Of a DNA stretch of 64,000 nucleotides, positions 33,784 to 38,845 are shown piece after piece. The notes beneath the pieces were generated by a model. The model did not search any database. It saw only the letters and a list, made by a program, of their open reading frames with translations, and was not told where the DNA came from. Origin of the DNA: Kiloniellaceae bacterium (GTDB lineage Bacteria > Pseudomonadota > Alphaproteobacteria > Kiloniellales > Kiloniellaceae); assembly GCA_021776195.1 (NCBI GenBank), contig JAJFGK010000081.1, positions 7,497 through 71,496 of the forward strand, given 5' to 3'. Both the position numbers and the translations under genes were made by a program. Numbering within the stretch: the stretch's first letter is position 1; each line of letters begins with the position of its first letter.

Positions 33784-34051
33784 ATTGAGGTTCCTGCGGG
33801 CCTTGTCCGCTGTCGAGACCTGCCCAGGGGCAGGATCACAATTCCTGTGACGGCGGTCACTCGACGGCCCAAGGCGAATATGCATATTAGTAGATGGAAG
33901 CCGGGGAGCGGAGTCACGATTTCTCGCTGTCGCCAGCGATGCGTTCTTTGTCGGTTCGCATTTGCGACCGGCGAGGCCCTTCACCCTATCGATGCTCGTG
34001 ATTCCCCAGGTTCCCGGACGATCTTGGGAGAGCGATCAAGGGAGAGCGACG
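33784..34051. other. Upstream region of the giant repeat gene
   Basis: Between the serC promoter and the large repeat gene. It should contain the rightward promoter of that gene, but no convincing hexamer pair was found; TTGCGA and TATCGA near 33961-33993 are spaced too widely. AAGGGAGAG just before 34052 is the ribosome-binding site. No gene or RNA was recognised. Confidence 0.4.
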
Positions 34052-37000
34052 ATGAGCCAAGGACAAGGTCTGAAATCAACATGGGGCGTCGTTGACCCGG
34101 CGAAAGCCGCTTCCGATCCGCAAGCCAAGGCATTCAACCAAAGTTTCAACACCATCATCGGTCCGATGCGCGGCCACGTGGAGTACATGTCGGTCTATGG
34201 ACCGCTGCAACAGTGCACCTCCATGGATGGCAAGTGCGAGAGCCTCTACCAGGCCTATCAGAAGGTCGCCAAGACAATCGATCCGGCCAACGAGGCCAAG
34301 GCGAAGCCCTCGATCGAGAAGGTCATTGCCTCGGCCAAGGAAACGCTGGCCAAGCACAAGGCGACGGTGGCCCAAACCAAGGCCGACCAGGCAGCCTGGG
34401 ACGCAAAGGAACCGCTCTACGCCAAGACGATGGACCGGATCAGCGAGCTGGAGGCCTGGGACGATTCCGCCGCCGGTTTCCTTCAAGCGCTCGGCGACAT
34501 CGATACCAAGGCCAACGAGCGCTGCTGGTCGGAGGCCATTAAGGGCCTCGACAAGCTGGCCGCCGAGGTCGATCCGGCCTACGCCCTATACCTGAAACAA
34601 AAAGAGGCCATGGCGGCCTACGATCAGGAACGGCCGGCCTTCGACGCCGCCTTCGACGCGGCCCAGGCCCATCCCCTGCCCTCGGCGGAGATGACGGGCC
34701 TGGCGGACCAGATCGCCAATCAGCTTCCGGCGATCGACGCCTGCGTCGAGCAGAAGGACTATGTCTCGGCCGTCGATCAACTGACTGCCCTCGGCTCGCC
34801 CCTGAAAGAGCTGCAAGACGCCTTGGCGCGCCACGAGGAGCGCGAGCAGGAATACAACACCCGTCTCGACGCCCTGCAACCGCGGCTGTTGGAGTCCGAG
34901 GTCTGCGAGTTCCCGACCCTGGCGCCGATGCATGAAGAGATCGAGAGCTTCCATTCGCAGATGGAGACGGCCGCCGGCACCGGCGACTTCGAGACCGCGC
35001 TCGGTCATCTGGACGACCTGGAGACAAGGGTCGACGGTTACTTGAGGGCGCTCGAGGAAGAGCGTGCCAAACGCGATGCCTTCGAGCAGCGCGCCGACGA
35101 TCTGGCAGGCCGAGTTCCGGACGAATGCCGCTTCGGCGTTCTGGAACCCCTGCAAAACGATATGCAGGCTGCGCTGGAAGCCGCGCGCGCCGCCGCGACC
35201 GAGGGAGAATTCGATGCCGCGGAAGGCCAGCTCGACACGCTGGAGCAAAACATCGGCAGTTTCGAAACCGAATTGGCGGCGCTGGAGGCCAAGCAGGCGG
35301 AGTACGAGACCGGTCTCGCCGCCCTGCAGCCGCGTCTGTCGGAGACCGAGATCTGCGAGTTCCCCTCCATGGCGTCGCTGCATGAGACCGTCGCCTCCCT
35401 GCAGGGTGAGATGGAAGGATTCGCCGCCGATGGCGACTACGACCGGGCGATCACTTGCCTGGGCGACCTCGAAATCAAGGTCGATGAGTTCTTCCTGGCC
35501 CTGGAGGAGGAGCGCGAGCGGCAACGGCGGCGCGAGGAAATTGAGCAGCGTATTCAAGAGTACGAGGCGCGGATTCCGCAGGAATGCCGCTTCCCCACGC
35601 TGGTGCCGGTCCAGCAAGACCTGGTGGACCTAGTTGGCCAGGCGCGCGACGCCCTGGCGGCTGACGATCTGGACGGCGCGGAGATGATTCTCAATGATCT
35701 GGAGCTGAAGTTCGGCGAGTTCGAGGCCGAGTATGCCGCGCTGGAGGCCAAGCAGACGGAGTACGAATCGCGCCTGGCCGCCATTCAGCCAGGCCTCGCG
35801 GATGCGTCGGATTCCGTGTTTCCCAGTCTGACGGGGCTGCTGGAAGAGGTCGTCGCCCTGCGGGACTGCATGGCGGAAGCCGCCAGTGCCGGCGAGTACG
35901 ACGTGGCGCTGGATCACCTGACCGACCTGGAAATCAAGCTGGCCGAATACCTCGCCCTGCTGGACGAGGAACGCGAGAAGGAGCGCCGCCGCGAGGCCTT
36001 CGAGCAGCGCTACGAAGAGCTCGTGGCGCGGCTGCCGAACGAGTGCCGCTTCCAGACATTGAAGCTCCTGGTGGACAAAATGGAGGAGCTCAAGGGTGTG
36101 GCGCGCAGCGCCGCCGATGTGGAGGACTTCGACCGGGCGGATGTTCATCTCGAGGATCTGGCGACAACAATCGATGAATACGAAACCCGCTACGACGAAC
36201 TGGAAAAAAGGCAAGCCGAGTACGAGACCCGCCTGCCCGGTGTGATTCAACGCTTCGATGCGATCGTGGACTGCGAGTATTCCGAGCTCGCGGACAGTCA
36301 ACAGAGAATGGACCCGCTGCGCAGCGAAATGGAAACCGCGGCGGCGGATGGAAACTTCAGTCATGCGGTCGATCTGCTGTGCGATCTCGAGGCGCTGCTG
36401 ACCGAGATCGAGGAGACCCGCGTAGAGCTCGACGAAAAGCGGGCGGATTACGACGCGCGTCTCCCCGGGCTGACGGATCGCAAATCGCCCTTCGACACCG
36501 TCGAGTTCACCGAACTCGAGGAGCCGGTCGACAAAATGAAGCAGGACTGGAGCGCCATGGAGGCAGCCGCCGGGGGGACCGATTTTCGCCTCGCCGTCAA
36601 GCTCATGGATACCCTGGAGCCCCAGCTCGATGACCTGGAAAAGCGTCTCGCCGAGCTGAAGGCGCTGCGCGACAGGTACGAATCGGCCCTGCAGGATCTG
36701 GCCTCCAGCCTGGCAGACGTCGAGGGCTGCGATCACGCGCTGCTGGCGGACAAGAAGAAGGAAATCCTCGACCTGCGCGACGAGATGGTGGCGCTGGCCG
36801 AGGCGACCGACTTCGAAGCGGCCCTGGAGAAGGTCGAACCCCTGAAGGAGAAGATCGCGGCCTTTGCCAAGCTCGAAGAGCTGCGCGAGGAATATGAACG
36901 GCGCCACGAGCTGGTGGCCCCGAGGGTCGAGGCGGCCAAGGCGATCACCTACAAATCGCTCGCCGACGACGTCAAGGAGGTCACCGATCTCTACGGCAAG

Positions 37001-38845
37001 ATGACGGCGGAGGCGGCCAAGGCCGAGTTGGAGACGGCGCTCGAAAAGATGGGAGAGCTGGAAGACAAGCTCGAGGAGCTAGAGGCCGACAACGAGCGCC
37101 TGAAGACCGACGAGATCCGCTACAACGACCGCCACGGCATTCTGGAGCCCAAGGTCAAGATCGCCGAGGACAACAAGGCGGAGGACGCCAAGTCCGAGGC
37201 CGAGGCGGTCACCGACAAGTACGAGGAGATGACCGACGAGGCCGAAGAGCACGAGTTCACCAAGGCCATCGAGAAGGCCGACGAGCTGGCCGAGCTGATC
37301 GAGGCCTACGAGAAGAAACTCGAAGAGATCGGCGATTTGCAGGAGCGCTACGAGGCGCTCAAGCCGATGGTCGAGACGCGCATGAAAACCGCCGAGGCGA
37401 CCGAGTTCGAGACACTGAAGGGTGATCTCGACGATCTGCGCGACCTCAAGGAGGCAATGGAAGGCGCCGCGGACGACGATGACTACAAGTCCGCCCTGGA
37501 AAAGCTCGATGAGCTTCAAAGCGCGCTCGACGAATTCGAGAAGAAGGCCTTGGCGCTGCACGACGCGCAAACCGATTACGAATCCCGCTCCGGGCCGGTT
37601 GTCGAGCGCTTCAACAACTTGCCAAAAGATGCGCGGGACAAGGCGGAAGACGCCGTGGAAGACGCCGAGCAGTACAAAGAAGAGATGGAAGAGATGGCCG
37701 GCGAGGAGGACTTCGAGGGCGCGGTCAGCGCGCTTGACCGGCTTATCAAGGCGCTGGACGAGGTCGACGAGAAGCTCAAGTCCGACGACGAGCTCAAGGC
37801 CCAGTACGACGGCCGCCTGGACTCGCTCCAGCCGCGCCTCGACAAGGTGGCCGGCTCGAAATGGGCCGACAAGCTATCGGCCGAGAAAGACGCCGTCGAC
37901 AAGGCGGTCGCGGAGATGGAGAAGATCGCCGGCCGCGACGATTTCAAGGGCGCACTGGACGCCGCGGACGCGGTCGACGAAGCCCTGGGCAAGTTTGACG
38001 AGGCCGAAGACAAGCTGGAACAGCAGCAGGTGCGCTTCGATGAGCGCATTCAAGGTGTCCAGTCGCGCTATGACAAGGCCATGAAAGTCACGCTGAATGA
38101 GCTGTCGGACAAGAAGAAGAACCTGACCAGCCTGAAGAAAACCGCTGAAGAGACCGCCAAGACAGGCGATTTCGACAAGGCGCTCAACGAGGCCGACGAC
38201 TATGCCAAGGCGGTCGATGAATTCCTGGAAGAAGCCGACAAACTGGAAGATGAGCAGGCCCGCGAGGAAGACGGCGGAAAACCAGGATCGGGCGGCGGGG
38301 GAGACCCCACCGGGACGGATCGGGTCCGCGACGGCATCGAGACGATCGTCGATGGTGCCGGCGAGATTATCGAAGGGGTTGGCGAAGCGGCCACCCAGGT
38401 CGGAGACTCGATCCAGAACGCCGGCGAAGACGCGGTCAATGCCCTCGAGAAAGACCGCGACGGGGTCATGGCGGAAATGGGCGAAGCGGTGCTGCAAACT
38501 GCCGCCGAACTGATCGACCCCGTCGGCGACGCCGTCGGTTCGATTATCTCGGACAGCGGGACCATCGTCGACAACGTGGGCGAGGCCATCGGCAACGTGG
38601 TCGACGGTGAAATCATCGACGCCGTGGTCAACGTCTATGAGGCCGGCAAAGGCGCCAAGGACTTGAGCTTCGACGTCGGCGCGGCAGCCAAGGAGGCCTT
38701 CGTCGACAACATCCCCGATGTCGCCGAGCAGGTCTTCGACGGGGTTGTCGAGGTCGGCGGCGAAGCCTTCGACGCGCTGACCGGAGACGGCAAGAAGGAC
38801 GTCGAGGAAGGCGTGGAAGAAGGCATCAAAGAGGGCGTCAAGTAG
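34052..38845 (+). CDS. Giant helical tandem-repeat protein, unknown family
   Basis: A 1597-residue acidic protein without a visible signal peptide or transmembrane helix. Residues ~1-120 form a unique head with WGVVDPAKAASDP and GHVEYMSVYGPLQQC. Residues ~100-1400 contain about 17 units of ~76 residues. Each unit has a G/D-D-F/Y-x(2)-A-x(3)-L-x-x-L-E core, with anchors near residues 158, 235, 311, 385, 461, 538, 614, 691, 767, 843, 919, 992, 1067, 1143, 1219, 1296 and 1372. Units in the first half alternate between CEFP-type and PxECRF-type starts. A GSGGGG hinge (~1412-1417) leads to a 170-residue glycine/valine/acidic tail. The helical, heptad-rich pattern suggests rod-like three-helix units like spectrin, so a scaffold, tether or length-measuring role is possible. 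I do not recognise the family. Start: ATG with AAGGGAGAG upstream. It is monocistronic between divergent serC and convergent MaoC. Confidence 0.8.
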   Translation: MSQGQGLKSTWGVVDPAKAASDPQAKAFNQSFNTIIGPMRGHVEYMSVYGPLQQCTSMDGKCESLYQAYQKVAKTIDPANEAKAKPSIEKVIASAKETLAKHKATVAQTKADQAAWDAKEPLYAKTMDRISELEAWDDSAAGFLQALGDIDTKANERCWSEAIKGLDKLAAEVDPAYALYLKQKEAMAAYDQERPAFDAAFDAAQAHPLPSAEMTGLADQIANQLPAIDACVEQKDYVSAVDQLTALGSPLKELQDALARHEEREQEYNTRLDALQPRLLESEVCEFPTLAPMHEEIESFHSQMETAAGTGDFETALGHLDDLETRVDGYLRALEEERAKRDAFEQRADDLAGRVPDECRFGVLEPLQNDMQAALEAARAAATEGEFDAAEGQLDTLEQNIGSFETELAALEAKQAEYETGLAALQPRLSETEICEFPSMASLHETVASLQGEMEGFAADGDYDRAITCLGDLEIKVDEFFLALEEERERQRRREEIEQRIQEYEARIPQECRFPTLVPVQQDLVDLVGQARDALAADDLDGAEMILNDLELKFGEFEAEYAALEAKQTEYESRLAAIQPGLADASDSVFPSLTGLLEEVVALRDCMAEAASAGEYDVALDHLTDLEIKLAEYLALLDEEREKERRREAFEQRYEELVARLPNECRFQTLKLLVDKMEELKGVARSAADVEDFDRADVHLEDLATTIDEYETRYDELEKRQAEYETRLPGVIQRFDAIVDCEYSELADSQQRMDPLRSEMETAAADGNFSHAVDLLCDLEALLTEIEETRVELDEKRADYDARLPGLTDRKSPFDTVEFTELEEPVDKMKQDWSAMEAAAGGTDFRLAVKLMDTLEPQLDDLEKRLAELKALRDRYESALQDLASSLADVEGCDHALLADKKKEILDLRDEMVALAEATDFEAALEKVEPLKEKIAAFAKLEELREEYERRHELVAPRVEAAKAITYKSLADDVKEVTDLYGKMTAEAAKAELETALEKMGELEDKLEELEADNERLKTDEIRYNDRHGILEPKVKIAEDNKAEDAKSEAEAVTDKYEEMTDEAEEHEFTKAIEKADELAELIEAYEKKLEEIGDLQERYEALKPMVETRMKTAEATEFETLKGDLDDLRDLKEAMEGAADDDDYKSALEKLDELQSALDEFEKKALALHDAQTDYESRSGPVVERFNNLPKDARDKAEDAVEDAEQYKEEMEEMAGEEDFEGAVSALDRLIKALDEVDEKLKSDDELKAQYDGRLDSLQPRLDKVAGSKWADKLSAEKDAVDKAVAEMEKIAGRDDFKGALDAADAVDEALGKFDEAEDKLEQQQVRFDERIQGVQSRYDKAMKVTLNELSDKKKNLTSLKKTAEETAKTGDFDKALNEADDYAKAVDEFLEEADKLEDEQAREEDGGKPGSGGGGDPTGTDRVRDGIETIVDGAGEIIEGVGEAATQVGDSIQNAGEDAVNALEKDRDGVMAEMGEAVLQTAAELIDPVGDAVGSIISDSGTIVDNVGEAIGNVVDGEIIDAVVNVYEAGKGAKDLSFDVGAAAKEAFVDNIPDVAEQVFDGVVEVGGEAFDALTGDGKKDVEEGVEEGIKEGVK
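34349..38251 (+). repeat. Coding tandem repeat, ~17 units of ~228 bp
   Basis: The repeat array inside the giant gene. Spacing between equivalent anchors is 73-77 residues. DNA identity between units is low while protein spacing is conserved, so the repeats are old and held by selection, not a recent expansion. The first eight full units pair into 152-residue super-repeats. Confidence 0.8.

Follow-up and report, generated by a model that had tools for sequence, protein, structure and literature searches.

The gene and its surroundings

The 64-kb stretch of Kiloniellaceae bacterium DNA analyzed here (64,000 nucleotides of contig JAJFGK010000081.1, hereafter the window) carries at positions 34052..38845, on the plus strand, an open reading frame (ORF) with an ATG start encoding a repeat protein of 1597 amino acids, designated P0001. 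A likely ribosome-binding site (GGGAGAG, 34040..34046, plus strand) is located 5 bases (CGACG) before the ATG, and at third codon positions the ORF has a GC content (0.82) similar to that of the neighboring genes (0.71-0.91). The gene codes, in plus-strand order, for a head of the type designated A (residues 1-104, GLKxxWGVxxP..., 34052..34363), 17 helical-bundle units (residues 105-1393, 34364..38230), a glycine-rich hinge (residues 1408-1417, 38273..38302) and an acidic, amphipathic-helix-like tail (residues 1418-1597, 38303..38842). The hinge and the distinct tail agree with an earlier note on this DNA, which had been made from the sequence alone. We give a probability of about 0.5 to the reading that P0001 is a giant rod-like effector chassis, belonging to a modular family of polymorphic-toxin-like effectors with a head, a rod and a variable C-terminus.

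To the left of the P0001 gene lie serC and serA, both divergent from it (serC was named from sequence, no Pfam family being found for it). To the right, a MaoC-type gene, a GNAT gene and a PhzF-like gene are all encoded on the opposite strand, the convergent MaoC gene lying 24 bases from P0001. By inspection, the remaining window has gene content usual for an alphaproteobacterial chromosome, including tol-pal, ruv and ftsH. Relatives of the serC product (80 kept) showed 60-67% identity in the best segment and were mostly labelled Alphaproteobacteria; at the 80 corresponding loci, neither the unit profile nor P0001 matched any open stretch of at least 150 amino acids. There is no co-directional neighbor, and for the window the absence of a partner operon, as the earlier note had it, holds.

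Repeat units and predicted structure

The repeats of P0001 are real and exceed shuffled controls. Their cores are located at residues 157, 235, 311, 385, 461, 538, 614, 691, 767, 843, 919, 991, 1067, 1143, 1219, 1296 and 1372, hence at a spacing of 72-78 residues, and the earlier count of 17 evenly spaced copies is borne out. In a BLOSUM autocorrelation of P0001, lags 76 and 153 were prominent (both -0.06), only lag 7 being higher (-0.03); 200 locally shuffled copies reached at best -0.43 over lags 60-169. The two-unit period (153) equals the single-unit period (76) in strength, and units 3-9 are 33-49% identical two apart versus 26-27% between neighbors. Using a leave-one-out profile, each of the 17 units exceeded the best of its own 200 shuffles. 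The margin was wide for units 3-17 (34-75 bits versus at most 15.5) and small for the first two units (9.9 versus 7.1 and 16.6 versus 8.2 bits).

Residues 1-484, covering the head and units 1-5, were modelled with AlphaFold at a mean pLDDT (predicted local distance difference test) of 90.5. The consecutive units appear as helical bundles in which helices of 40-47 residues alternate with helices of 22 residues; residues 1-20 of the head are of low confidence and the rest of the head is helical. Judged from helix order and lengths in two AlphaFold models, the units are probably three-helix bundles, chained by continuous helices and laid out like spectrin or EzrA, which supports the long rod of three-helix units proposed before. 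The modelled helix lengths suggest a rise of about 3.4 nm for each unit and a length of some 58 nm for the 17-unit rod. Foldseek searches with the predicted models returned 0 matches at E <= 0.001, and a sequence search of the PDB with P0001 gave no match.

The predicted layout is shared with EzrA of the bacterial spectrin family, described in the available text of PMC4243239 as a linear array of antiparallel three-helix bundles with continuous joining helices. EzrA, however, has five units of about 100 amino acids without meaningful mutual similarity and acts in cell division, whereas the family described here has up to 17 units of 72-78 amino acids, similar to one another and present in varying numbers.

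Matches of P0001 in Pfam, NCBIfam, PHROGs and PADLOC were all weak and for the most part to coiled-coil proteins, and those in Pfam and NCBIfam fell without exception below the curated cut-offs. An SMC/Rad50/JetC-type coiled-coil ATPase was rejected, the best NCBIfam score of about 45 bits comparing with cut-offs of 700 and 300 (10 of 10 matches below) and Pfam showing no ATPase domain in P0001. The PADLOC matches to LmuB (40.4 bits) and JetC (31 bits), for which no cut-offs are given, were judged to reflect helical composition, as were the matches to SMC/Rad50 and to tape-measure proteins.

A family with a common head and differing C-termini

A search with residues 257-1395 of P0001 identified 11 relatives, P0002-P0012. 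P0002 is 43% identical over 89% of the query, P0003-P0007 are 33-35% identical (two are labelled Sulfitobacter, one Paracoccaceae) and P0008-P0012 are 25-29% identical. A search with the entire protein, seeded by words from its first 500 residues, had returned only P0001 itself, which, given these 11 relatives, is no proof of orphanhood. The long forms P0001-P0007 (1235-1597 amino acids, 11-17 units) can be aligned along most of their length. Residues 1-215 of P0012, used as a query, yielded 90 proteins including P0012 itself among 2989 candidates; these have 569-1149 amino acids and, by the unit profile, 2-8 units, and Rubrivivax and Ideonella are two of their source names. Thus, the statement that no described family has this architecture stands for Pfam, NCBIfam, PHROGs and PADLOC, but relatives do exist (11 by the repeats, 89 by the P0012 head). 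A description of the head/rod family was not found among the open-licence PMC papers listed. No locus was confirmed when genome contigs were searched with P0001, and P0012 had 0 matches in 4 genomes. The 0 matches of repeat profile A1 in 48 and 385 genomes and of profile A5 in 369 genomes from the order of a Methyloversatilis genome had no positive control and are uninformative.

Contrary to the earlier note, the head is not unique. A profile built from 90 other heads (those of P0010-P0101 except P0099 and P0101) matched the head of P0001 at 81.4 bits, the best of 1000 shuffles scoring 7.5, and the first 104 residues of P0001 are common to P0002, P0008 and P0010-P0012. P0003-P0007 and the members in Rhodobacteraceae have a second head type, most with a DGxID-like motif. 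Comparison of the two types by hhalign gave a probability of 34%, and the P0004 head scored 14.9 bits against the type-A profile.

Behind the units, 92 of the 94 proteins P0008-P0101 have at least 50 further residues. These 92 C-termini form 11 single-linkage BLAST clusters (32, 20, 13, 10, 6, 4, 3, 1, 1, 1 and 1 members), 7 of them with 3 or more members. The heads of 9 of the 11 cluster representatives are 61-100% identical to that of P0012, the exceptions being P0010 (36%) and P0009 (29%, seemingly headless). Unrelated C-termini stand behind a shared head and 2-14 units, and several are peptidase-like by motif. HExxH occurs in 27/32, 3/3 and 1/1 members of three clusters. All 20 members of the second, C39-like cluster have SCNAT and H[YF]V...H[DN]P, and HE[AST]EVH is present in 13/13 members of the third (P0016-P0019, P0021, P0023-P0025, P0030, P0040-P0042 and P0099). 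Peptidase_C39 matched P0012 at E 0.0027, below the Pfam cut-off; within the P0012-head set, precomputed annotation places PF13529 and PF07737 in two proteins each, and P0053, P0031, P0019 and P0092 matched no Pfam family of peptidases or toxins. Since Pfam support is thin, reading these C-termini as enzymes relies mostly on motifs.

The tail of P0001 is of a different kind. Residues 1401-1597 have a net charge of -34, and their hydrophobicity is periodic at 3.70 residues (a level reached by 0/300 shuffles) and at lags 7 and 11 (reached by 0/1000), a pattern that we liken to the helices of synuclein or perilipin with their 11-mers. P0003, P0006 and P0007 likewise have a high value at lag 11, which is not clear in P0002, P0004 and P0005, and the P0001 tail shows marginal likeness to those of P0002 and P0007 (about 13-15 bits). 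By hydropathy, P0001 has no stretch of transmembrane or signal-peptide strength (best 19-mer Kyte-Doolittle mean 1.11), as the earlier note had stated.

Taken together, the family consists of an N-terminal helical head, 2-17 units of about 76-78 amino acids predicted to be three-helix bundles, and a differing C-terminal part. It is listed in no library searched, and its design fits a known kind. As far as sequences tell, the N-terminal part is kept and the C-terminal domains appear exchangeable, the pattern by which polymorphic toxins are recognized; according to the available text of PMC3482391, such toxins also have a central filamentous repeat module, and their C-terminal domains include papain/C39-like and metallopeptidase types, as found here by motif. 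A head, a rod, a differing C-terminus and the lack of a signal make up this design, in which the rod would correspond to the filamentous module. In contrast to the known polymorphic toxins, neither the head nor the repeats gave a match to a Pfam module in the proteins that were scanned, and P0001 has no recognized toxin domain. The UmbC umbrella toxins of Streptomyces likewise combine degenerate alpha-helical (ALF) repeats, a long helical stalk and variable C-terminal toxins (available text of PMC11062931). The ALF repeats, however, have 43-44 amino acids and form a ring, and UmbC has a twin-arginine translocation (TAT) signal, whereas in P0001 units of 72-78 amino acids stand in a row, without an ALF match in Pfam and without a signal by hydropathy.

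Type VI secretion and a partner domain

Among 394 Rhodobacteraceae genomes, profile A3 matched 5 and profile A7, comprising the second head type and two units, matched 6. VipB, the sheath protein of the type VI secretion system (T6SS), was detected in 101 of the 394, including all 6 family-positive genomes (hypergeometric 2.5e-4, uncorrected for kinship). The 50 genomes with at least two VipB matches by hand count also include all 6 (3.2e-6), this subset having been chosen after the data were seen. A second sheath gene was seen in the T6SS clusters of genomes G597 (L120:13464-18026) and G628 (L125:1800-6815); the two ORFs, of 1520 and 1671 amino acids, have a TssB-like start by inspection and contain the second VipB match.

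Seven relatives in 5 genomes were viewed in their genomic context, one being a contig-end fragment; C11 of G628 and C17 of G809 were outside this set. Two of the 6 full-length relatives have a gene next door that begins with another domain, here called the partner domain, and the earlier claim of no partner operon does not extend to these. In G597 the partner gene (L090:12636-13415) is divergent from and adjoins a long form; in G628 (L094:7594-9012) it lies 18 bases upstream of a family member. The domain has no Pfam match over the cut-off and, in the one protein scanned, none in PADLOC or PHROGs. All 4 genomes tested contain it, in open frames that span 265-1910 amino acids and, where printed, differ at the C-terminus; one has a VanY domain exactly at the Pfam cut-off (25.0 bits). 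The partner domain has the appearance of a marker domain for effectors that is so far unlisted.

Some partner ORFs lie beside T6SS genes. In G640, the ORF L122:1187-2308 is divergent from tssA and matches both the partner domain (E 1.1e-7) and the unit profile (E 7.7e-9). Two partner ORFs of G597 on L120 lie before tssA (at 1476) and are divergent from it. In both genomes tssA was assigned by inspection, from likeness to the TssA of G665, a genome in which Pfam confirmed TssA, TssB, TssC and Hcp and in which two partner genes are located about 6 and 10 kb from tssA on the T6SS contig. No partner domain was found in P0001-P0101, nor in the T6SS stretches of G628 and G544 (L125, L126).

The domain (KARKKxxNFAxxxGKDG-like) was also seen at the head of long proteins on L107, L109, L111, L112, L116, L117 and L119, and G597 has ten matches to it. 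Their C-termini include the VanY domain at cut-off (L109), HExxH (L117, L119) and, by inspection, a GH19-like part (L107). In two genomes, small genes (L116:12999-13433 and L118:12186-12653) follow long genes at 15 and 28 bases downstream; by inspection the C-termini are alike, and the small genes are immunity-like candidates by position only. A further small gene (L093:8150-8599), directly after the gene of a member whose tip has HExxH, has a seeming signal peptide by inspection and possibly encodes a periplasmic immunity protein.

Varied T6SS effectors have a marker domain such as MIX at the N-terminus (available text of PMC10673891), the position also taken by the head described here; for the present family, by comparison, the link to the T6SS is made only by co-occurrence and by the neighbors of relatives. 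Pfam found no match to MIX, PAAR, VgrG, Hcp or Rhs in P0001 or the relatives scanned (Pfam coverage of MIX was unchecked), nor to RHS, VgrG, PAAR or HINT in the proteins scanned. T6SS effectors with N-terminal marker domains are not known to have a signal peptide.

Discussion

If P0001 is an effector chassis, the head would dock on a delivery machine, the rod would serve as a stalk holding or threading the tip, and the C-terminal part would act in the target. For the Rhodobacteraceae members the T6SS is the most likely machine and the best-supported route of delivery. For the window protein, we infer that delivery may also be by a T6SS and that the acidic amphipathic tail may be the active part, perhaps acting on membranes. 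A bolder version appears doubtful: the chain of slim bundles would pass end-on through the Hcp tube, allowing a cargo far beyond the size possible for a globular protein, and gain or loss of whole 78-residue units would tune rod length (rod width and fit in the tube are assumed values). In support of the main reading, length changes by whole units. Among P0012-P0101, 15 pairs, overlapping in membership, have heads and tails at least 85% identical and lengths at least 20 residues apart. In 14 of the 15 the difference is an exact multiple of 78 amino acids (1, 2 or 3 units) and in one it is 76.

Several observations weigh against the effector reading. Many of the sources are short metagenome contigs, and the 78-residue steps may be misassembly. 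The T6SS link derives from 6 genomes of one bacterial family with kinship uncorrected, and in the sixth, G809, the match is weak (6e-7) and confined to positions 124-231, outside the head. Rhodobacteraceae members with a visible head carry the second type, which is not certainly related to that of P0001, and for type-A genes the genomic context was read for P0001 alone. In the window no T6SS gene was seen by inspection (the Pfam scan covered 10 neighbors), and no immunity-like gene was seen among the neighbors of P0001. Pfam and NCBIfam recognized no enzymatic or toxin domain in P0001, nor did Pfam recognize an enzymatic domain in the long forms P0002, P0004, P0005 and P0007. Finally, P0001 forms 11, 9, 8 and 9 reciprocal best unit pairs with P0002, P0003, P0004 and P0006, respectively, in conserved order (Spearman 0.98-1.0), and to judge from these alignments the in-order units place the long forms closer to a structural protein than to a rapidly evolving toxin.

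This last point favors an intracellular spectrin-like scaffold or tether resembling EzrA, in which the rod would link cell components, the tail bind the membrane and the head bind a partner. Such a role, close to the scaffold, tether or ruler of the earlier note, is possible and we regard it as the foremost alternative, at clearly lower probability than an effector. It has to account for relatives in which the same head precedes unrelated C-termini, peptidase-like ones among them, and for a patchy spread (5 or 6 of 394 Rhodobacteraceae genomes; 0/385 genomes of a class, a search with no positive control). The differing C-termini, together with the association with T6SS genomes, point instead to polymorphic-toxin-like cargo.

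Rather unlikely is a T6SS accessory in place of a toxin, the long forms being an adaptor, chaperone or loading rod for partner-domain effectors. The non-enzymatic look of the long-form tails would suit this, as would the partner gene adjoining a long form in G597 and a member in G628, and the G640 protein that combines repeat units and partner domain beside tssA (assigned by inspection). A long form in G640 nevertheless has no partner neighbor, no partner domain was found in the window, and 95 of the 101 VipB genomes have no family match. Delivery by an extracellular contractile injection system instead of the T6SS is improbable. Toxins with peptidase domains are known in PVC-type systems too (available text of PMC3482391), but Pvc16_N was found in 0/6 family-positive genomes, a result that shows little, as no control genome matched either. 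A phage or prophage tape-measure or tail protein, suggested by weak PHROGs matches (18.8 and 16.1 bits), is hardly credible, as the neighbors of P0001 are housekeeping genes (partly by inspection) with no phage genes among them and no relative was found in viral contigs or in plasmid and phage records.

To the catalogue of delivered-looking bacterial proteins the family contributes a head and a helical repeat that are both unlisted, as well as a neighbor domain. To the authors of a paper of 2014, EzrA was the only bacterial spectrin-like array known (available text of PMC4243239), and the predicted rods would be a further bacterial use of such arrays. If the T6SS link is true, the head and the neighbor domain would be effector markers in Rhodobacteraceae and in the type-A group, which is partly labelled Rubrivivax and Ideonella, and the rod would raise the question of how large a T6SS cargo can be.
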